Positions 27,549 through 39,480 of a stretch of DNA of 64,000 nucleotides are shown here, one piece after another. Position numbers and translations under genes: made by a program. The notes beneath the pieces are model-generated. The model searched no databases. It saw only the letters and a list, made by a program, of their open reading frames with translations, and was not told where the DNA came from. The DNA comes from Undibacterium piscinae. Lineage in GTDB: Bacteria > Pseudomonadota > Gammaproteobacteria > Burkholderiales > Burkholderiaceae_D. Positions within the stretch are counted from its first letter, which is position 1. Each line of letters begins with the position of its first letter. The DNA lies in the NCBI GenBank assembly GCA_003970805.2, contig CP051152.1:2604001-2668000 (forward strand). The letters run 5' to 3'.

Positions 27549-27812
27549 TTACTCCGGTGCCAAAGCGCTTAATGCATCGACCACATCGCTGATAGTGCGT
27601 ATGGTCTTGAACACTTCCGGTTGCAGACGTTTGCCAGTCATTTGTTTTAATTTCACCGCCAGATCGACCGCATCGATGCTGTCGATATCGAGATCGGCAT
27701 ATAGGTTAGACTCTGGCCGCATATCCGCCTTATCCAGCTCAAACATTTCAGCCAGCAAATCCACCACCCAAGCATACAGCTCTTCTTTACTCATTGCGCT
27801 TACCACTACCAT
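27549..27812 (-). CDS. apeF: acyl carrier protein (ApeF position)
   Basis: ACP of 87 residues. The 4'-phosphopantetheine Ser lies in LDIDSIDAVDLAVK. It carries starter or growing polyene chains. GAGG precedes the ATG at 27812; an internal ATG at 27794 is a second option. It is the second of two ACPs in tandem, 12 bases after the first. Confidence 0.92.
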   Translation of the reverse strand: MVVVSAMSKEELYAWVVDLLAEMFELDKADMRPESNLYADLDIDSIDAVDLAVKLKQMTGKRLQPEVFKTIRTISDVVDALSALAPE

Positions 27813-27824
27813 GACACGGTCCTC

Positions 27825-28079
27825 TTATTTCTTTCTGCTGGTTTCTATCAATGCCGTCAGTGCGCGCACCGAGGCGAAATGGCGACGCGTATCTTCCGAA
27901 TCGGCAGACAGCGAAATGCCATAACGTTTTTGCAGCGCCACACCCAGCTCCAGCGCATCGATAGAATCCAAACCCAGGCCCTCGACAAACAAGGCTGCAT
28001 CGCTGTCAATATCGGCGACGCTCATGTCTTCCAATTGCAGCGCATCGATAATCAATTGTTTCACTTCTTGTTCAAGCAT
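27825..28079 (-). CDS. apeE: acyl carrier protein (ApeE position)
   Basis: ACP of 84 residues with the modification site GLGLDSIDALELGVAL, Ser at about residue 38. Two ACPs are a hallmark of APE clusters, where one is thought to take the aryl starter and both may serve elongation. It overlaps the acyltransferase gene by eight bases. Confidence 0.92.
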   Translation of the reverse strand: MLEQEVKQLIIDALQLEDMSVADIDSDAALFVEGLGLDSIDALELGVALQKRYGISLSADSEDTRRHFASVRALTALIETSRKK

Positions 28080-28872
28080 GACGTTGGTATTCCTGAGTAA
28101 AATAACTTTGTAAATAATCTGTTAAACGACGTGCCGCCATGACTTCGCTGGCTGCCGCGTCGATAAAACCAGCAATTGGAATATCGTCCAACACTTCTAT
28201 CCGAAACTGCGCTCTACGCGGCGGTATCTGCCACCACTTCTCGCCCTTGCCCAAGGTCATCGGTGCGCAATGTATCAACACTGGCGTGATATTGCGCGCA
28301 CCGCGTACTGCAATGTTTGCAGCACCGCGTTTCATGCAAATCGCCGCATTTTTTTCCGTCCTCGTGCCTTCCGGAAAAATGATGAGGTTATTTCCGTCTT
28401 GCAAAGAACGAATACAATCTGCTACCAGTTGCTGACCCTGATCGTTATTGATATAGCCTGCCGCCCGCACCGGACCGCGCATGTAGGGGTTGTTCCACAA
28501 GCCTGCTTTGACAATACAATCGGCACGCTTCACCAACGCCATCAAGAACACGGTGTCTATCAGAGTAGGATGATTTGCCAGTATCAGCAAGCCTTGCCGC
28601 TGCAGCTTTTCTAGACCGATGATTTCATAGCGCAATACGCCAAGGGCATGCATCATACCAACGAAGGCGCGAAAAGTAACGCGTAATACGGCACGCGCGC
28701 AGCGTATGCGCGGCTGCCGCTGCCTGAGCATGATGTTAATCAAGGGAAACACCAGCACACCTAAGAATAGCCCACCGATTCCAAAGCTAACAAAACAGAG
28801 CCCTGTGGCAAACACCCGCCAATAATATTCCAGGCGATCAGGCATCCCGGCTCCAGCGCCAGCATCGTCCAT
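28072..28872 (-). CDS. PlsC-like 1-acylglycerol-3-phosphate acyltransferase
   Basis: Acyltransferase of up to 266 residues with a hydrophobic N-terminal helix (FVSFGIGGLFLGVLVFPLI). The HxxxxD catalytic motif is ILANHPTLIDTVF, and the substrate-binding motif is IIFPEGTRTEKN. It likely transfers the polyene or a fatty acyl chain to the lipid anchor. It overlaps the chain length factor gene by 35 bases if the first ATG is used; the inner ATG at 28845 reduces this to eight and is a better start. Confidence 0.88.
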   Translation of the reverse strand: MDDAGAGAGMPDRLEYYWRVFATGLCFVSFGIGGLFLGVLVFPLINIMLRQRQPRIRCARAVLRVTFRAFVGMMHALGVLRYEIIGLEKLQRQGLLILANHPTLIDTVFLMALVKRADCIVKAGLWNNPYMRGPVRAAGYINNDQGQQLVADCIRSLQDGNNLIIFPEGTRTEKNAAICMKRGAANIAVRGARNITPVLIHCAPMTLGKGEKWWQIPPRRAQFRIEVLDDIPIAGFIDAAASEVMAARRLTDYLQSYFTQEYQRHA

Positions 28873-31037: not shown

Positions 31038-32078
31038 CTAGACCGGTGACAGCAAACGCCCGCGCAACAACAGGTTCAGGGTGCGGACGGCCAAAAACAG
31101 GATCACCGAACTAGCCAGCAACACCGCGCCCAAGGCCACCTCCGGCGGCCAGCCACCGCGCCGCACCGCTTCGGCGATGCAGGACGCCAGCGCTGCCGCC
31201 GGAAAAGAAAACGACCAGAAACTGAAAGAAAACGGGGTCTGGCTCCACCAGCGCCAGCGCGTCAGCACCGCAAACACCGGTCCGCTGGCTATCCCCAAGC
31301 CTATCATGATGAAGTCGGCAGACAGCATAGGCCATACGGTGGCCGCCGCCAGCGTACCGACTGCGGCAGGCGCGATTTCTATCCCCAGCGTAGGCCGCAA
31401 ACCCAGCGGCAAAGGGCCGGCAAACAGGCGATTGAGGATACGCATCTCGAGCAAGGCCCAGCCGCCCAGCCCCATCCCCATCAGCAGCATGGCAAAACCC
31501 GGCAGACCGACTACAGTTAGCGCCATGGCACCGACAAAACCACCCGGTACGATAGGCAAATACAATGCCGGGCTCAATAATTCCGAAGGCATCTGACCGG
31601 TGGCCAGCTGCGACACAATATGCCAGGCAATAATGGCCTGCAACATCAGACATAGCGCAATCACCAGGTTGACCGCCAACTGCCAGTCAGGATGAGTGGG
31701 CCGTACCAATACCACCGCCAGCAGGCAACTCACCGGCATCAGGGCCAGCAAAGCGCCCTGCACCGGATGCTTAAACTCTTGCCGGAACACGCCATGATGC
31801 AAGATTAATTTGGCGACCGCCAACAACAATAGCAGCGCCAAAATTCCCAGACCCAGCCACAGCAAGGCCTGCGCCAGTAGCGGCGCGAATTCCCAGCCGA
31901 AGCTGGTGAGGCGCTGCCAGCTGCCGGACAAAGCCAATAAGCCTAGCGGGATACTGAACAAGCCGGGATGCAGACGTGCCAGCCAGGGGCGCGCATGGGC
32001 ATGGGCGCTGACGGTAGCGGAATCAGGAGTGTCAGGAGTGGCGCGCAAGGGGGGCTCCGTGGCAAGGGTATCTGTCAT
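31038..32078 (-). CDS. SLAC1/TehA-family anion channel-like membrane protein
   Basis: Integral membrane protein of 346 residues with about ten helices, of the SLAC1/TehA (tellurite-resistance/dicarboxylate transporter) family. RPWLARLHPGLFSIPLGLLAL near the start is the family entry motif, and PALYLPIVPGGFVGAMAL and SFWSFSFPAAALAS follow at the expected places. It is the last gene of the Fur-box operon, 37 bases after the small membrane protein. Substrate unknown; it could move anions that accompany redox or metal chemistry in the periplasm. Confidence 0.85.
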   Translation of the reverse strand: MTDTLATEPPLRATPDTPDSATVSAHAHARPWLARLHPGLFSIPLGLLALSGSWQRLTSFGWEFAPLLAQALLWLGLGILALLLLLAVAKLILHHGVFRQEFKHPVQGALLALMPVSCLLAVVLVRPTHPDWQLAVNLVIALCLMLQAIIAWHIVSQLATGQMPSELLSPALYLPIVPGGFVGAMALTVVGLPGFAMLLMGMGLGGWALLEMRILNRLFAGPLPLGLRPTLGIEIAPAAVGTLAAATVWPMLSADFIMIGLGIASGPVFAVLTRWRWWSQTPFSFSFWSFSFPAAALASCIAEAVRRGGWPPEVALGAVLLASSVILFLAVRTLNLLLRGRLLSPV

Positions 32079-32115
32079 GATGCGACAGGCCGGCGCTCGC
32101 TTGCAAGCGTTACGG

Positions 32116-32622
32116 CTAACTATGTTGGATTGCCTTGCGCCCTATCAAGATATGCAGCAATAACAGTAAAGGTAAGGCCAGACCGAGTAGCCAATGGGTG
32201 CCCGACCACCAGAACCGGCTTTGCTCAGCGGCCAGATAATACAGGCCATAACCGCTGATGCTGAGTGCCGCGAATGCGGCGACCATACTCCAGCCGCTGG
32301 CGCGATTGCGGCCGGCCCTGTGGGCGCGCCGCATATGCAACTGCAATAGCGCACCGGTCAAAAACAGCGCGATCATCGCCAAGCCGCCATGCACCTGTAT
32401 CGCCGGATGCTCCCAGGGGTGCAGGGTTTCGCCGAATTCGCTGGCCTGGCGCAAGAAAAAGTGCGCGATCAGCCAGACGGCACCGGACAAGGTCAGCGCA
32501 GCGACGAGTGCATACAGCGAACGGCGATGCCAGCGTTCCAGACGGAAATGCTGCTGTCGCTGCTGCCAATGTGGCGCCAGTTGCTGGAATGGATGATGCA
32601 GGCTGGTTTTAGGCGGGCGCAT
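32116..32622 (-). CDS. four-helix membrane protein, possible cytochrome b-like (DUF4405-type)
   Basis: Small integral membrane protein of 168 residues. Four hydrophobic segments are visible: SLYALVAALTLSGAVWLIAH, VHGGLAMIALFLTGALLQL, MVAAFAALSISGYGLYYL and THWLLGLALPLLLLLHIL. His residues lie near the membrane ends in several (AIQVHGG, QLHMRR, SGTHWLLG, LLLLHILIG), a pattern fit for haem ligation. I infer a DUF4405/cytochrome b561-like electron carrier because it sits next to ApbE and a flavinylated FMN-binding protein. Family assignment is tentative. Confidence 0.6.
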   Translation of the reverse strand: MRPPKTSLHHPFQQLAPHWQQRQQHFRLERWHRRSLYALVAALTLSGAVWLIAHFFLRQASEFGETLHPWEHPAIQVHGGLAMIALFLTGALLQLHMRRAHRAGRNRASGWSMVAAFAALSISGYGLYYLAAEQSRFWWSGTHWLLGLALPLLLLLHILIGRKAIQHS

Positions 32623-32649
32623 GGTGCGGATTATCTGCTCGATTCAGGT

Positions 32650-33493
32650 TCAGGCCGCGACTATAAAAGCATCGGCGCAAAAGTAGGCCAGGCTTGGATG
32701 GTCGGCGTCGCCGCTGGCCGCCACCACCTTGGTCAGGGCATCAGCCCACAGGCATTCCGCCGCCCGTACGCTGATGCTGCCGATTCCGGTAACCGCACTT
32801 CCGGTCCAGCCATGCACCAGGGCACTGACCGCTTGATCACCATGCATTCTGGCCGAAAAATAGCTGCCGGAAGTGGCCATTGCCTGATCCTTCAACTGTA
32901 TGGTTTTGATCATCGTAGTGGGTGTGCGCGGGTCGCGGATCGCCACCTCGATAGCTTCCTCACCGATCACGCGCAAATCACCGCCGGCATTGACGCAAGC
33001 GTTGGCGACACCAGCCTGTTGTAGCGCCAGTATCGCCTGATCGACCGCATAGCCCTTGGCGATGCCGCCCAGATCCAGCCATTCATGCCGCAGTTTTTTT
33101 TATCCGGTTCTGTGACATCAGACGCCAGGCCTGTTGCCGTGGCTGATAGTCGAGCAAGGGCAACTCAGCGTTAATACGGTGCGGTAAATATTCCCACTCG
33201 GCCAGAGTGCCCGCCACACGGATATCAAACAAACCCTGGCTAGCCTCACTGACGCGCAAGGCCGCCTTGATCACGCTATGGGTATGGCCGCTGATGGTCA
33301 GGGTGCTACCGACCTCGGCGGCGTTAATCTGCGCGACCTCACTGCCCTCATACTGAAAGCTCATCAGCATGTGAATCTGGCCGATCACCGAAAACGCCGC
33401 ATGAAAGGCACGGTTCAAGGCCGCCTCGCCTAGCGGGTCGGCAATGCTGATCTCTACCAGGGTACCGAGCCAGGGTTGGGCGCGGCGTATCAT
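32650..33493 (-). pseudogene. apbE: FAD:protein FMN transferase ApbE, frameshifted
   Basis: Enzyme that links FMN covalently to Thr in target proteins. It starts at 33493 (MIRRAQPWLGTLVEISIADP), its ATG overlapping the stop of the FMN-binding gene. The first frame stops at about 33083 after SQNRIKKTAA; removing one A from the coding-strand run of eight gives KLRHEWLDLGGIAKGYAVDQ, the core ApbE motif. It then continues to DLRVIGEEAIEVAIRDP and SAVTGIGSISVRAAECLWAD, ending at 32650. The repaired product is about 280 residues without a clear signal peptide. It is either a recent pseudogene, phase-variable, or a homopolymer sequencing error. Confidence 0.87.
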
Positions 33494-34035
33494 TTCTTCA
33501 GCGCTAGCTGAGCGATCGCCGCGATCCTGCGTACGCCGTCGGTAACGTGGCTGCATGACAGGGTGGCGCCGCTGATATTGGCGACACCCTCGCCCAGCTT
33601 CAGGCCGCTGGCGGCAGTCTTGCCGGAAAACTGTTTGCGCCAGTTGGCATTTTTTATTTCAAAGCCATGGCTTTCACGGTAAGTCAGTATCTCGACCTGA
33701 CGCACGCTGGCATCAGGCAGCAAGCCTACCGCATATGAAATCAACTCAAACTTCCCTATCACCTCATCGAGCACGATGTGGCCGAGCAATTTATCGTCTT
33801 TATAGGCGGCAATCACGCGCCACGCCACTGAGCGCGCCGGCAGGCCGGCCAGCTTTTCTACCTGCTGCATCTGCTCCAGATTCAGTTGCAAGGTGGCGGG
33901 TTTAAAACTGCTGGCCTCAGGAAAAATCACCAGTTGCGCCTGCTCCGCGGTCAGATACTGGGCGGCGAAGGCGCTACTGCTGGCCAACGCCAGCGTCGAC
34001 AAAACTATCGGTGAAAAGTGTTTCAAGTGTTTCAT
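33490..34035 (-). CDS. periplasmic FMN-binding protein, covalent flavinylation target
   Basis: Exported protein of 181 residues with a signal peptide (FSPIVLSTLALASSSAFAA). The FMN_bind domain ends with NISGATLSCSHVTDGVRR; SGATLS is the consensus site where ApbE attaches FMN to the Thr. The same domain type occurs in RnfG, NqrC and flavin-based extracellular reductases. The gene is translationally coupled to apbE and lies eight bases after the porin gene, which points to a periplasmic electron-transfer role in one operon. Confidence 0.88.
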   Translation of the reverse strand: MKHLKHFSPIVLSTLALASSSAFAAQYLTAEQAQLVIFPEASSFKPATLQLNLEQMQQVEKLAGLPARSVAWRVIAAYKDDKLLGHIVLDEVIGKFELISYAVGLLPDASVRQVEILTYRESHGFEIKNANWRKQFSGKTAASGLKLGEGVANISGATLSCSHVTDGVRRIAAIAQLALKK

Positions 34036-34043
34036 TACGCGTA

Positions 34044-35363
34044 TCAGAAAGAATAGCCGACACCGAGATTGAATCTATCCATCGCGCTGTCACGCTGGAA
34101 TTTCTGGAAATCCGCTTTCAGCACCACACCCTCGCCGATGCGGAAACTGGCTCCCACCGTCGTCACTTTTTCAGCCTCAGAAGCAGCCACAGCCAAGCCC
34201 TGCGGCATGGCGCTATAACTGGCGGCGGTATTGAATTGCTCGTAACGGATGAACGGTGTCAGGCTGTAATCGGTATTGCTCCACACTTTGTACGCGCCCT
34301 GCAGATACCAGCCGTAAAACGAGGACGGCACCGGGCTAGGATTACCGGCTAAAGTGAGGTTAAGCGCCTCGGTATTGCTGATGCTGCCGCGCGCATACAA
34401 GGCCGACAAATCCCAGTTGCCCGGAGTGTAACGGGCATGCGCATCCCACAAGGTGACGCGGGCATCGTTGGCGACGAAGTCAGTAGTGGCATGGCCAGCC
34501 TTACCGCTAAACACCGAAGCGCCCAGCAACAAGCCGGGAACGCCGCGCCAGTTCAAGGCCGCATGCAAGCTCAGGTCATGCGATTTGGCAAACTGGCCTT
34601 CCTGATGGATGCTGCCCAAAGGCGATTCCTTAGCATCGCTGCCGGCGGCATCCCATTTAGTCAGGTCAAACCCGGTGGTGATACCGGCATCCCAGCTAAG
34701 GCCGTTGTCATGTGCGCCGGAAACGGAGAAGCCCGCCTCGCGCCAGGTAGTCGGGATAATCGCGGTTTCAACGAAGTTACGCTGTACGCCATAGTAGGCG
34801 GTCGGTTCGTGGCTAGGATTGATAAAACCAGCGGGTATCAGGAACAAACCGGCCTTGGCGCTCAAGCCATTCTTGAATTCGTGCTCGACGTAAATCTGCT
34901 CGACTGCCGCCTCGCCTTGATCGTCGGCCGAAGTGACCGCATGCTCCCATTCAAACTCGGCCACCATCTTGGTTTTTTCATTGAAACGGTGAGAGATCCC
35001 GAGCACGGCACGACCGACATCGGTCTGCGCCTGGTTCGCGGCATCGCGCGGACGCGTGTAAGCGATTTCGCCATAGCTGCTAATGACCGTGGCGGGAGCA
35101 GCCGCGCTGCCCTGAGTTGAGACACTGGCCGAAGGACTGGAAGAAACACTGGCCGCGGCGGCCACGCTAGTGGCCAAAACTTCCTGTTTCTGCGCTACGG
35201 TTTGCTGGCGGTTGGCGGCTAATTCGGCCTTGATGGCCTCTAATTCGGCTGCCAGCTTTTCTATTTTTTGCAGTAATTCGGCTTCGCCGGCCTGCACCGG
35301 AGCGGCGATTGCGGTGCTTAAAAATGCGACGCACAGGGCTTGTGCCAGTAAGGTTTTTTTCAT
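34044..35363 (-). CDS. outer-membrane porin, phosphate-selective-porin-like, with coiled coil
   Basis: Outer-membrane beta-barrel of 439 residues. After a signal peptide (LCVAFLSTAIAAPVQA) comes a short coiled coil (LLQKIEKLAAELEAIKAELA) and an Ala/Ser-rich linker. The barrel then starts with SSYGEIAYTRPRD and ends with RFNLGVGYSF, whose final Phe is the BAM recognition signal. The trimeric coiled-coil start resembles DcaP/OprO-P-like porins. It follows the dihaem gene by 53 bases, so it may admit a metal chelate or small substrate handled by this operon. Confidence 0.85.
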   Translation of the reverse strand: MKKTLLAQALCVAFLSTAIAAPVQAGEAELLQKIEKLAAELEAIKAELAANRQQTVAQKQEVLATSVAAAASVSSSPSASVSTQGSAAAPATVISSYGEIAYTRPRDAANQAQTDVGRAVLGISHRFNEKTKMVAEFEWEHAVTSADDQGEAAVEQIYVEHEFKNGLSAKAGLFLIPAGFINPSHEPTAYYGVQRNFVETAIIPTTWREAGFSVSGAHDNGLSWDAGITTGFDLTKWDAAGSDAKESPLGSIHQEGQFAKSHDLSLHAALNWRGVPGLLLGASVFSGKAGHATTDFVANDARVTLWDAHARYTPGNWDLSALYARGSISNTEALNLTLAGNPSPVPSSFYGWYLQGAYKVWSNTDYSLTPFIRYEQFNTAASYSAMPQGLAVAASEAEKVTTVGASFRIGEGVVLKADFQKFQRDSAMDRFNLGVGYSF

Positions 35364-35416
35364 GAGATTCTTTCGCCAGAGCTGAGTAATTGATTAAATA
35401 AATAGAATGGAATTAT

Positions 35417-36658
35417 TTAGTTTTTATAGCCATCGTTCAGGGTGGCCAGAAATTTCACCACGTCATCGACCTCGGCCGGGCTGAGCGCCGCCGCCATGCC
35501 GCGCTGGCGGTTGTATGGCACTTCAGTGGTGTTGACATTCTTCAGATAGGCGGCAGGCAGGTCGTCAAATTTCATCACGCTGCCATCGGCGGCAAGCGGA
35601 TACCATTCTTCAGGATTGGTATCGCGGCGCACATAAAAACTCACCGCATCGCGCAGACTGGTAAAACGGCCGTTATGGAAAAACACCTTGCGGGTCGCGA
35701 CATTGCGCAAACTCGGTACCTTAAACGCACCACACAAATCAGTCCGCGCCTTCAGATCCGTACGGTCAGGGCCGCACAGGCCCAGATCCGCATAGGCCGC
35801 GTCGGCAGTAGCCGGAATCGCGTAATTGCGCGGTACACCGAGGTTATCGTAAGTAAAATCGGTGAACAGCGGTGAAGATCCATCGGCGCCTTTGGCGCTG
35901 CTATGGCAGCCTATGCAATTGCCCTTGCTTGGATTATTGAATAAGGCCAGACCACGTAATTCGGCCTCATTGAGCGCAGCTTTACCGGCCAAAAACTGAT
36001 CGTATTTGGAGTCATACGGATGAAAATCCTTATCTTCCTTCTGATACTGCTGCAGGGCGAATAAGGCACGCTCAAAAGCGCTGTCAGTATTCTCAAAAAT
36101 CGTCGCGCCAAAGGCCGCTTTAAATTCACTGACATAGGCGCTGCGCTGCAATTTGGCGACCACGTCGGCCCGATCGCGATTGGCCATCTCGTGCGGCGCC
36201 AAAAATGGCGTTTCAGCCTGCTGCGCCAGCGTCTGCGCCCTGCCGTCATGGGTAAAGCCACCGGTAGGCGTACCATCCTTATCAAAGAAGAAGGCCGGTG
36301 TTAGGTTCAGATAGCGTAATGATGGCGTAGCGCGAAAACCCGGCACGTCCAGCTTGGCACCACCCAATTGCACGCTCAAATTATTCGCCGGGGCATGGGC
36401 GTTGGCTGGATCATGGCAAGTCGCGCAAGACATCTTGCCGGAAGCCGACAGGCTGATATCCTTGAAGATTTTTTCACCGACACTGGCGGCAGCGCTCACG
36501 CTCGCCTCTGGCGTGGGCTGGGCTGTACCACCCGTGCTACCCGAACTGTCAGCGGATCCGGAACCACCGCAGCCAGCCAGCAATCCGGCCAGCCCGAAGG
36601 CCAGCAGCGCAGCCGAGAAAGAAGAATGTTGTACTGTCATTTTTTGCTTAAACCACAT
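35417..36658 (-). CDS. dihaem cytochrome c peroxidase/MauG-like lipoprotein
   Basis: Exported dihaem c-type cytochrome of 413 residues. The start at 36658 has GGAAG six bases upstream and supplies the basic n-region. The lipobox is LAGLLAGC, so it is probably membrane-anchored. Haem sites are SCATCHDPANAH and NCIGCHSSAKG; DGRAQTLAQQAETPFLAPHEM and VPSLRNVATRKVFFHNGRF are typical of the bacterial peroxidase/MauG family. As first gene behind a Fur box it may oxidise or reduce a periplasmic substrate linked to iron supply. Specific activity cannot be read from sequence. Confidence 0.9.
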   Translation of the reverse strand: MWFKQKMTVQHSSFSAALLAFGLAGLLAGCGGSGSADSSGSTGGTAQPTPEASVSAAASVGEKIFKDISLSASGKMSCATCHDPANAHAPANNLSVQLGGAKLDVPGFRATPSLRYLNLTPAFFFDKDGTPTGGFTHDGRAQTLAQQAETPFLAPHEMANRDRADVVAKLQRSAYVSEFKAAFGATIFENTDSAFERALFALQQYQKEDKDFHPYDSKYDQFLAGKAALNEAELRGLALFNNPSKGNCIGCHSSAKGADGSSPLFTDFTYDNLGVPRNYAIPATADAAYADLGLCGPDRTDLKARTDLCGAFKVPSLRNVATRKVFFHNGRFTSLRDAVSFYVRRDTNPEEWYPLAADGSVMKFDDLPAAYLKNVNTTEVPYNRQRGMAAALSPAEVDDVVKFLATLNDGYKN

Positions 36659-36714
36659 GATCGCTTCCGTTGCATCCGGCGCCACCAATAGCTCGCCTTC
36701 GCTTTATTAATACA

Positions 36715-36733
36715 AATGAGAATGATTACTATT
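36715..36733. promoter_or_regulatory. Fur box
   Basis: TGAGAAT-G-ATTACTA fits the 7-1-7 Fur consensus TGATAAT-n-ATTATCA at 11 of 14 half-site positions, and the surrounding AATGAG-AATGAT hexamers fit the array model. It lies 57 bases before the dihaem gene start on the minus strand, so iron repression of the whole operon is expected. The plus-strand gene at 36919 is much farther away. Confidence 0.8.
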
Positions 36734-36918
36734 ATACTGTTGAGCTAAAGCTGCTGACAAGAAATACACTTTGATCCAGGATAAATCCATGTCGTTTCCT
36801 TACCACTTCAGGGCTAATTCACGCTTTTCCGGTCTTCTTCGACAGCGGGCGGATTATCTTGGATAATGGCAAGGTATTCCTGCCCGTTGCGCAGCGTTCA
36901 ATCTAACGGAAAGCCTGT

Positions 36919-38225: not shown

Positions 38226-38545
38226 TTACGCGGTCATGCGGGCGACAGCTAGTTTTAAGTTCTCGCCTGACGGCAAACCATACATGGCTGAATCGGATTT
38301 GACGCCACCGACGATCCAGCGTTCGCGCAATAAACCTTTAAATAGCACTTTGGCCGAAGCCAGATTGGCCGGATCACTTCTCGGCGTTTTGTAGCCTAAA
38401 GCCATTTTCTGGGGCGAATTCATGGCTTCCTGCATATTCAATGTGTTGAATGCGCGCCAGACCATAGCCCACTTCGCCGCGCCGGCATTCTTTCCAGATT
38501 GACGGATCAAGTACCATTGGTATTCATCCTCATTGCGGAAACAGC
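38226..38545 (-). other. unidentified coding remnant next to the IS30 copy
   Basis: The minus strand keeps an open frame that joins IS30-derived codons to a segment reading NEDEYQWYLIRQSGKNAG and later KVLFKGLLRERWIVGGVKSD. The second part is not transposase and looks like the end of some other protein, ending ...LKLAVARMTA. I do not recognise it. It is probably host or other mobile DNA to which the broken IS was joined. Confidence 0.45.
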
Positions 38546-38779
38546 GCTGCCGATACTGGCGACCAGGATCTGGCAAAGATGACCGGTAAGCCCATGTCTT
38601 TGAAGTGCGCAAATTCACAGCCATTTCTAAGGTCAGTGAAAGGCCGGGTAATCCATTGTAGTTCGGGAGCGCTGCCGAGGGCGACCAGGATCGGCAAAGA
38701 AGACCGGTAAGCCCACTTTGAAGTGCGCAAATTCACAGCCATTATCTAAGGTCAGTGAAAGGCCGGGTAATCCATTGAG
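38544..38779. repeat. tandem duplication inside the IS30 remnant
   Basis: Two direct copies of about 110-125 bases (38544-38668 and 38670-38779) share GCGCTGCCGA, GAAGTGCGCAAATTCACAGC and AGGCCGGGTAATCCATTG. They differ by several small indels, so the duplication is not brand new. It repeats the transposase codons around the second catalytic Asp. Confidence 0.88.
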
Positions 38780-39480
38780 TTCCTTACCAACCGCAGCGGC
38801 AACAGTGATGGCCGTCTTTTGCAAGACGGGAGAGATTTTGGTGTACAAGCTTTTGCGTTCGACCAAAGTGAGTAGGCAGTGATGATGTGACTGTCCGCGG
38901 ATGGTGTCGCCTTCCCAGTGACCAGCAATCTCTCTTGTCAACGCGCCTTTGGGACGCTGTCGAATACTCTTGCGACCGGCCGGATAGCTAGATTTGGCGG
39001 GCTTCCAGACGTTGGCAAGCTGATAGCGACGTAATTTTTTATTCAATGCACTCTTGGTACGCCGTATCCAGTTGTAGATCGTTTGGTGACTGATAGACCA
39101 ATTCTCTTCACTGCCCGCAATGCGCAAACGTGCGCTGATTTCGTCTGGAGACCATTCTTGATTTAATAAATGTCGCACCAGCGGCCAGATTTCTTTCGGT
39201 TTGGTTGGATGATTGGCCGCGCTTTTGGCAATGCGTTTAAGCGCTCTTTCATTGGACGCGAGGGCGTTGTATTTTTGATTTACTTTGCCTCGCTTGATCT
39301 CACGATAAATGGTCGAACGATCTACCCCAACTGCTATAGCAATCTCACTTACGCTGGTTTTTGATCCCAACAGACGTTCAATCTGGGAACGCTGTTTAGC
39401 TTTGAGATGAGTAAATTCCATTGCGATTTCCCTCGGTTAAGAACAACACAAAGGTACTCCTGTAACGAGAAAAACCTTTG
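38546..39480 (-). mobile_element. IS30-family insertion sequence remnant
   Basis: The transposase starts at 39421 (MEFTHLKAKQRSQIERLLG). It has the IS30 N-terminal helix-turn-helix (SEIAIAVGVDRSTIYREIKR) and two catalytic Asp sites, GHWEGDTIRG and LTLDNGCEFAHF. After FADP the frame is lost at 38633. The last catalytic Glu (NENTNG-type motif) and the distal third of the element are missing. A segment of about 110 bases around DNGCEFAHFK is repeated in tandem. The element cannot transpose by itself. No matching right-hand inverted repeat can be found because that end is gone. Confidence 0.88.

Follow-up and report, generated by a model that had tools for sequence, protein, structure and literature searches.

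A 64,000-nucleotide stretch of the Undibacterium piscinae genome (contig CP051152.1, positions 2,604,001 to 2,668,000; hereafter the window) contains a unit of five minus-strand genes that encode, in order of transcription, a di-haem lipoprotein, a porin, an exported flavin mononucleotide (FMN)-binding protein, the flavin transferase ApbE, and a four-helix membrane protein. The order and orientation of the five genes are complete in 67 of 80 related loci, and a Fur-like box overlaps the −10 hexamer of a promoter-like site. We propose, with about an even chance of being right, that these genes form a Fur-repressed trans-envelope chain in which quinol-fed b haems reduce a covalently bound FMN, coupled to a porin and a peroxidase like BthA, and that the chain probably serves reductive iron assimilation. 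The parts of this chain are well supported by their sequences; the electron donor, the acceptor and the direction of flow are what we infer.

Conservation of the gene unit

The host genome is a single contig of 4.19 Mb. In the window, six genes run in the same direction on the minus strand from position 36658 down to 31038, with intergenic distances of 53, 8, −4 (an overlap), 27, and 37 nucleotides, so that the open reading frame (ORF) coordinates bear out the gene order, strand, and tight packing given by the original prediction, which had been made from the letters of the window. In a Pfam scan of seven window proteins, the cut-offs were exceeded by the di-haem protein, the FMN-binding protein (FMN_bind), the two pieces of ApbE, and a SLAC1 channel. 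Relatives were collected at one genome per species, which gave 344 confirmed relatives of the FMN-binding protein, and the best 80 of the 344 were analyzed; the nearest loci belong to Undibacterium and other Oxalobacteraceae. Complete sets were found in Undibacterium, Collimonas, Noviherbaspirillum, Herminiimonas, Janthinobacterium, Rugamonas, Duganella, Massilia, Limnobacter, Derxia, Ralstonia, and Cupriavidus, among others. The remaining 13 loci are short of at least one gene, several of them at a contig end. Taken singly, the porin and the FMN-binding protein are present in all 80 loci, ApbE in 76, and the di-haem and membrane proteins in 74 each, and several of the six loci without the di-haem gene stop at a contig edge. 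Of 245 genomes sampled from the bacterial family, 43 have a match to the FMN-binding protein (E value of 1e-5), counting the U. piscinae genome itself and a more distant type, and among the 217 genomes of good quality 36 do so.

When neighboring ORFs were clustered, with most neighbors unannotated, none of the clusters beyond the five genes, including the reading frames within and overlapping them, was common to most of the 80 loci, and stably linked neighbors, for example iron transporters or TonB receptors, were rejected on this ground. Because the order is kept in so many loci and no wider neighbor is common to most of them, the five genes are regarded as a unit. The original prediction had described an operon of six genes, the last being a SLAC1/TehA-type channel (31038..32078; PF03595, 96.8 bits, cut-off of 27.9). 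This gene directly follows the fifth in the window but does so in only 3 of the 80 relative loci; therefore, the conserved set comprises five genes, and the channel is a local addition. The lack of a conserved order among relatives, which had been named as a finding that would speak against the prediction, did not occur.

Promoter-like site and Fur-like box

A sigma-70-like promoter (TTGTCA-18-TATAAT, 11 of 12 matches) lies on the minus strand at 36731..36760 and ranks highest among the 5 promoter-like sites between 30900 and 37000; shuffled sequence yields a mean of 3.3 sites. The Fur-box-like 19-mer on the same strand (36718..36736, 15 of 19 matches) begins with the −10 hexamer of this promoter. 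A Fur box had been predicted 57 nucleotides before the operon; the site is present and conserved, and its distance to the ATG at 36658 is 59 nucleotides.

The upstream regions of 73 relatives could be compared, since 6 of the 80 loci have no di-haem match and one more has too short an upstream region. With the window included, 62 of 74 upstream regions have at least 13 of 19 matches to the Fur box, a level seen in 5.5% of 1480 windows drawn at random from these loci, and the core AATCATTCTC occurs in 40 of the 73 relatives' regions against 1.14 expected, counts that are inflated by relatedness among the loci. When eight relatives are taken together, AATNATTCTCATT occurs 25 times and the reversed pattern twice, one of the eight having no site at all; by their coordinates, 4 of the 25 sites lie at the promoter of the operon itself. 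The neighbors of nine other sites include FeoA/FeoB, TonB-receptor plugs, extracytoplasmic function (ECF) sigma factors, and a major facilitator superfamily (MFS) transporter, proteins that were hand-picked by eye from 9 of the 25 sites and do not constitute an unbiased count. From these sequence patterns, the operon is probably switched on under iron scarcity.

The membrane protein, the flavin carrier, and ApbE

The fifth gene (32116..32622) encodes a predicted di-haem b cytochrome. As originally described, it is a four-helix protein with histidines: the predicted structure (predicted local distance difference test score, 87.4) has four long helices, and four His residues, the number expected for two b haems, are invariant: His78 and His96 in 75 of 75 aligned rows, and His143 and His157 in 74, the remaining row having a gap. 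Its resemblances to Acyl_transf_3, cytochrome b561, and DUF4405 all fall below the cut-offs, the best Pfam matches being Acyl_transf_3, Ni_hydr_CYTB, and DUF4405 (PF14358; 21.1 bits, cut-off of 26.7). At an E value of 0.01, 20 of 34 aligned members match DUF4405 and 23 match Acyl_transf_3. DUF4405-type cytochromes associated with flavinylation have been published (PMC11334425), and they share with the operon protein an adjoining apbE and four conserved membrane His residues, whereas they have six helices instead of four and the Pfam score of the operon protein is under the cut-off. The Foldseek search with the model had no match at an E value of 0.001 or less, its top entries being unrelated four-helix domains, and a comparison of the profile with solved structures gave nothing useful. 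A second structural comparison retrieved cytochrome b6f/bc1, superoxide oxidase, and haem bundles of designed origin, but bundles designed for other ligands reach the same Z-score (12.4 for one); all these scores are within or close to the range that helical bundles attain merely through their similar shape.

The third gene (33490..34035) encodes the exported FMN-binding protein that had been predicted, with FMN_bind above the cut-off (PF04205; 29.9 bits, cut-off of 22) and the flavinylation site SGATLS at residues 155-160. This site fits the [ST]GA[ST] pattern, and all 19 aligned proteins have it unchanged. A simple rule recognizes a Sec-type signal in 69 of 81 rows, in the window protein it is also visible by eye, and at least 10 of the 12 rows that fail the rule miss only the cleavage-site pattern, as seen by eye. 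The protein is predicted to carry covalent FMN at a target site of ApbE. RnfG and NqrC have the same FMN_bind fold and an SGAT-type site, and weak profile matches to their solved structures were obtained (E values of 5e-5 and 0.03, respectively); the operon protein differs from both in being soluble after its Sec-type signal, and no Rnf or Nqr family match was found among the other operon genes in the Pfam and NCBIfam scans.

The fourth gene, ApbE (32650..33493), overlaps the third by 4 nucleotides. The family assigned to it originally is correct, but the gene is not intact in the window sequence: its reading frame shifts at a homopolymer of eight bases (33094-33101; the 64 kb contain four runs of this kind), and the two halves (104.4 and 50.1 bits, cut-off of 25.6) lie in different frames. 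In all 74 relatives that have both halves (6 of the 80 loci lack one or both), these are in one open frame, and in the five close relatives compared the run at this position is shorter. Because of these two observations, a programmed frameshift as a conserved device was rejected; accidental, partly tolerated slippage at the run may occur. The U. piscinae genome has two further ApbE genes, one with a twin-arginine-like N terminus by eye, and either could substitute for the broken one.

The operon ApbE has no signal peptide and starts directly with its catalytic domain. A 15-residue stretch with a mean hydropathy above 1.6 before the domain was taken as the criterion, and none of the 62 readable relatives has one, the pre-domain maximum being 1.36 (L140); 12 further rows were unreadable by motif. 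Among eight genomes searched, the operon ApbE is the only one found (E value of 1e-10) in G061 and G013, which are drafts of about 60 and 90 contigs listed as 100% complete, and the six others have more than one. Most ApbE proteins are secreted, and some are cytosolic with a cytosolic substrate; a truncated, cytosolic ApbE was unable to rescue the growth of a knock-out without thiamine, and a seven-residue tag suffices for flavinylation (PMC12052999). Loading of FMN before export is possible. We tentatively suggest that, if this ApbE is functional, FMN could be attached to SGATLS in the cytoplasm before or during export and that the loaded carrier could then link the b cytochrome, the BthA-type lipoprotein, and the porin under Fur control; the chain so formed would, with the same reserve, be a flavin-based counterpart of the porin-cytochrome conduits.

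The di-haem lipoprotein and the porin

The first gene (35417..36658) encodes a di-haem c-type lipoprotein of the BthA/MauG kind (PF03150, CCP_MauG; 121.3 bits, cut-off of 25.6), and the structure (6nx0) of BthA, the Burkholderia thailandensis di-haem peroxidase that serves as the model of this class, is matched over query residues 56-410 with an E value of 9.4e-73. The lipobox Cys30, two CXXCH motifs, Cys295, Cys309, and Tyr342 are invariant in 74 of 74 aligned rows, in agreement with the dihaem lipoprotein foreseen for this gene. The closest NCBIfam models are the MbnH type (TIGR04039; 90.3 bits) and the MauG equivalog (TIGR03791; 82.6 bits), both far under their cut-offs of 362.85 and 443.85, respectively. 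Through the 6nx0 alignment and the numbering of the paper, Tyr342, Cys295, and Cys309 were equated to BthA residues: BthA likewise has two c haems, a Tyr ligand (Tyr463), and a Cys pair (Cys415-Cys430) near the second haem. Between the haems, BthA has Ser257, whereas the operon family has Arg, His, or Trp (56, 11, and 7 of 74 rows, by lineage; His137 in the window). A further difference is the setting, as bthA is described beside a phosphatase gene, phosA, whereas the operon enzyme lies in a flavin-porin operon and has an invariant lipobox. BthA requires an external electron source to turn over peroxide, and its function is stated as not yet discovered (PMC6405878).

The second gene (34044..35363) encodes an outer-membrane porin with 16 predicted strands and a coiled coil at its N terminus. 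Pfam, with its Porin_O_P model, gave no match for the window protein, although it did give matches for relatives. OprO has the highest Z-score in the second structural comparison, only about 1 above the OmpF types, and Foldseek ranks OmpC/OmpF types first; fold comparison therefore does not separate an OprO/OprP from an OmpF assignment. The phosphate-selective OprO/OprP porins share with the operon porin the predicted 16-strand barrel; the identity is about 15%, the coiled coil distinguishes the operon porin, and the OmpF/OmpC types are nearly as close. Two Collimonas members of this porin family (P0049 and P0071) are named phosphonate C-P lyase system protein PhnG, which is probably a misnaming.

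Exchange of partners in related loci

In other Gammaproteobacteria, the FMN-binding protein has a match in 30 of 369 genomes, the U. piscinae genome included, and the neighborhoods in 12 of the 29 other genomes were read. The proteins for the Pfam tests at this level, and for those of the second type below, were hand-picked from the loci, and the results are not unbiased counts. The seven strongest loci have the FMN-binding protein, ApbE, and a four-helix protein without a di-haem gene, and the porin is present in two of them. In the five weaker loci, a related porin is adjacent in every case, and the three membrane partners tested match PepSY_TM in L204 and L206 and nothing in Pfam in L202. 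At L205 (4151-8483), a divergent MauG-family gene stands beside the porin-FMN group, and the two face away from a common upstream region, in which a Fur-like site has 14 of 19 matches. Because a related porin and the FMN-binding protein occur together elsewhere without the di-haem gene, the porin-flavin pair looks like the core, to which the di-haem enzyme looks like an addition. The recurring theme is a membrane cytochrome-like protein and a periplasmic flavoprotein, often with an outer-membrane-type protein.

Within the family, a second operon type has the order DUF6662 protein, FMN_bind, ApbE, four-helix protein; at L061 and L236, the DUF6662 protein (3 of 3 tested) replaces the porin and the di-haem gene. 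Both the DUF6662 protein and the porin are found at L199, and L232 holds a distant FMN-binding paralogue without any partner. The word DUF6662 occurs in no open-licence PubMed Central text searched. The Collimonas silvisoli genome that carries L061 also has a decayed copy of the five-gene unit (L081, 1490-4059), in which ApbE is missing and the di-haem gene is matched by a C-terminal piece only.

Proposed electron chain and alternative explanations

In the proposed chain, Fur would leave the promoter when iron is low, and the membrane protein, with two b haems, would pass electrons from quinol or another donor to the covalent FMN in the periplasm. The FMN-binding protein would act as a distributor. 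It would reduce small anionic ferric chelates entering by the porin, and the ferrous iron so produced would become available for uptake; it would also feed the BthA-like enzyme, which would remove peroxide that otherwise reacts with the released ferrous iron. A dedicated donor in the operon makes sense because BthA itself needs an external electron source (PMC6405878). Of the flavin and haem chain as originally read, the gene order, the Fur-like box, the four-His protein, and the FMN machinery stand, and the SLAC1 member and the intact ApbE do not.

Several observations weigh against this proposal. The Fur box has fewer than 13 matches in all four Ralstonia, the one Cupriavidus, both Derxia, three of six Massilia, and the one Telluria locus, and at least 13 matches were found in only 4 of 15 upstream sites scanned in the related operon types. 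In the U. piscinae genome, the strict Fur motif occurs only twice, at the operon and at one other site, and a looser pattern has 17 sites against 8 for a control, so that the motif is a weak genome-wide marker in this species. The second strict site adjoins a gene that resembles a membrane enzyme, which we take to be unrelated to iron. None of the five genes matched an iron transporter in Pfam, and no such transporter is a stable neighbor as judged by clustering, in which not all neighbors are annotated. Five of the seven strongest class-level loci have no porin match. Four haems per chain are costly under iron scarcity. The ApbE frame is broken in the window sequence, and the place and timing of flavinylation are doubtful because ApbE has no signal peptide.

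The broken frame raises the question of whether the operon is decaying in this strain, with the FMN-binding protein loaded by another ApbE or left unloaded, which would be compatible with any function of the intact set. We give this a little less than an even chance. The frame changes at a homopolymer, although each of the 74 relatives with both halves has an uninterrupted frame, the C. silvisoli copy at L081, without ApbE and with only a C-terminal di-haem piece, has itself decayed, and the two other ApbE genes of the genome, one of them twin-arginine-like by eye, are at hand. However, the remaining operon genes have open frames in the window, a miscounted homopolymer in the assembly would look identical, and slippage at the run could still yield some full-length protein.

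Alternatively, the chain could exist to feed the di-haem peroxidase, the cytochrome and the FMN-binding protein driving the reduction of periplasmic hydrogen peroxide, with the porin as an entry or docking site and Fur guarding iron-stressed cells. The place of the di-haem gene at the head of the operon, its presence in 74 of 80 loci, and the peroxide turnover of BthA with its external electron source (PMC6405878) favor this explanation, which we nevertheless consider rather doubtful: several Gammaproteobacterial loci keep the FMN-binding protein and the membrane partner, some also the porin, with no di-haem gene nearby, a haem-rich peroxidase would be an odd response to a lack of iron, and the porin would be poorly explained.

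It is unlikely that the substrate is something other than iron, i.e., an anion or small molecule that enters through an OprO/OprP-like porin and is reduced by the covalent FMN, with Fur signaling a wider redox or anaerobic state. The conserved Fur-like box and the reported Fur control of related flavinylation clusters (PMC8238504) argue against it, as does the ranking of the porin, for which OprO is only about 1 Z-score unit ahead of the OmpF types and Foldseek puts OmpC/OmpF first. Very unlikely is a maturase similar to MauG or MbnH, which would oxidize residues of the porin or the FMN-binding protein (e.g., to form a metal site) and be reset by the flavin chain, since the Tyr ligand found in MauG and BthA (74 of 74) and the nearest NCBIfam models, both far under their cut-offs, are outweighed by the peroxide turnover of the closest solved relative, BthA (PMC6405878), by an inter-haem residue that is Arg, His, or Trp and not a fixed Trp, and by the existence of the porin and the FMN-binding protein without the di-haem enzyme.

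Relation to described systems

Among the described systems close to the chain proposed here are the PepSY flavinylation clusters, which are reported to be Fur-repressed in two species and have been proposed as iron reductases (PMC8238504). Both have a covalent flavin carrier, ApbE, a membrane electron carrier, Fur control, and proposed iron reduction; the PepSY-like clusters have a DUF2271/DUF4198 pair, whereas the operon has FMN_bind together with the porin and the di-haem enzyme, and no PepSY match was found in Pfam among the seven window proteins scanned. Iron reduction by Fur-repressed flavinylated chains has already been put forward in print for PepSY-type clusters (PMC8238504), and DUF4405-type cytochromes have been published as well (PMC11334425). 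What is new is that the flavin chain is paired with a porin and a di-haem enzyme of the BthA type, a combination that seems undescribed. The words peroxidase, MauG, and porin are absent from the main text of PMC8238504 and PMC11334425, and a Cupriavidus paper (PMC2864759) treats, in the text available, an FMN-binding protein in vitamin B6 synthesis and not this gene set. No description of the five-gene set was found in open-licence PubMed Central text, a search that did not extend to the supplementary cluster tables of PMC8238504, which may list such clusters.

The operon provides a close relative of BthA with a candidate electron donor and an iron-related setting, which can be tested by gene removal, and it extends flavin-based electron transfer outside the cytosol by a branch linked to a porin. 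The combination of a signal-less ApbE and an exported substrate makes the site of flavinylation directly testable.

Elsewhere in the U. piscinae genome (L144, 1426-3453), a further ApbE without an obvious signal peptide adjoins a secreted DUF4198-like protein, as seen by eye; by the same inspection, this locus is perhaps of the published PepSY/DUF4198 iron cluster type.

Other features of the window

On the minus strand at 38226-39421, there is a broken transposase that has the look of IS30 by eye, with pieces repeated internally in several frames. The same strand has, at 27549-28872, a row of three ORFs, two of them small and resembling acyl carriers and one resembling an acyltransferase, which is reminiscent of an aryl-polyene-type cluster.

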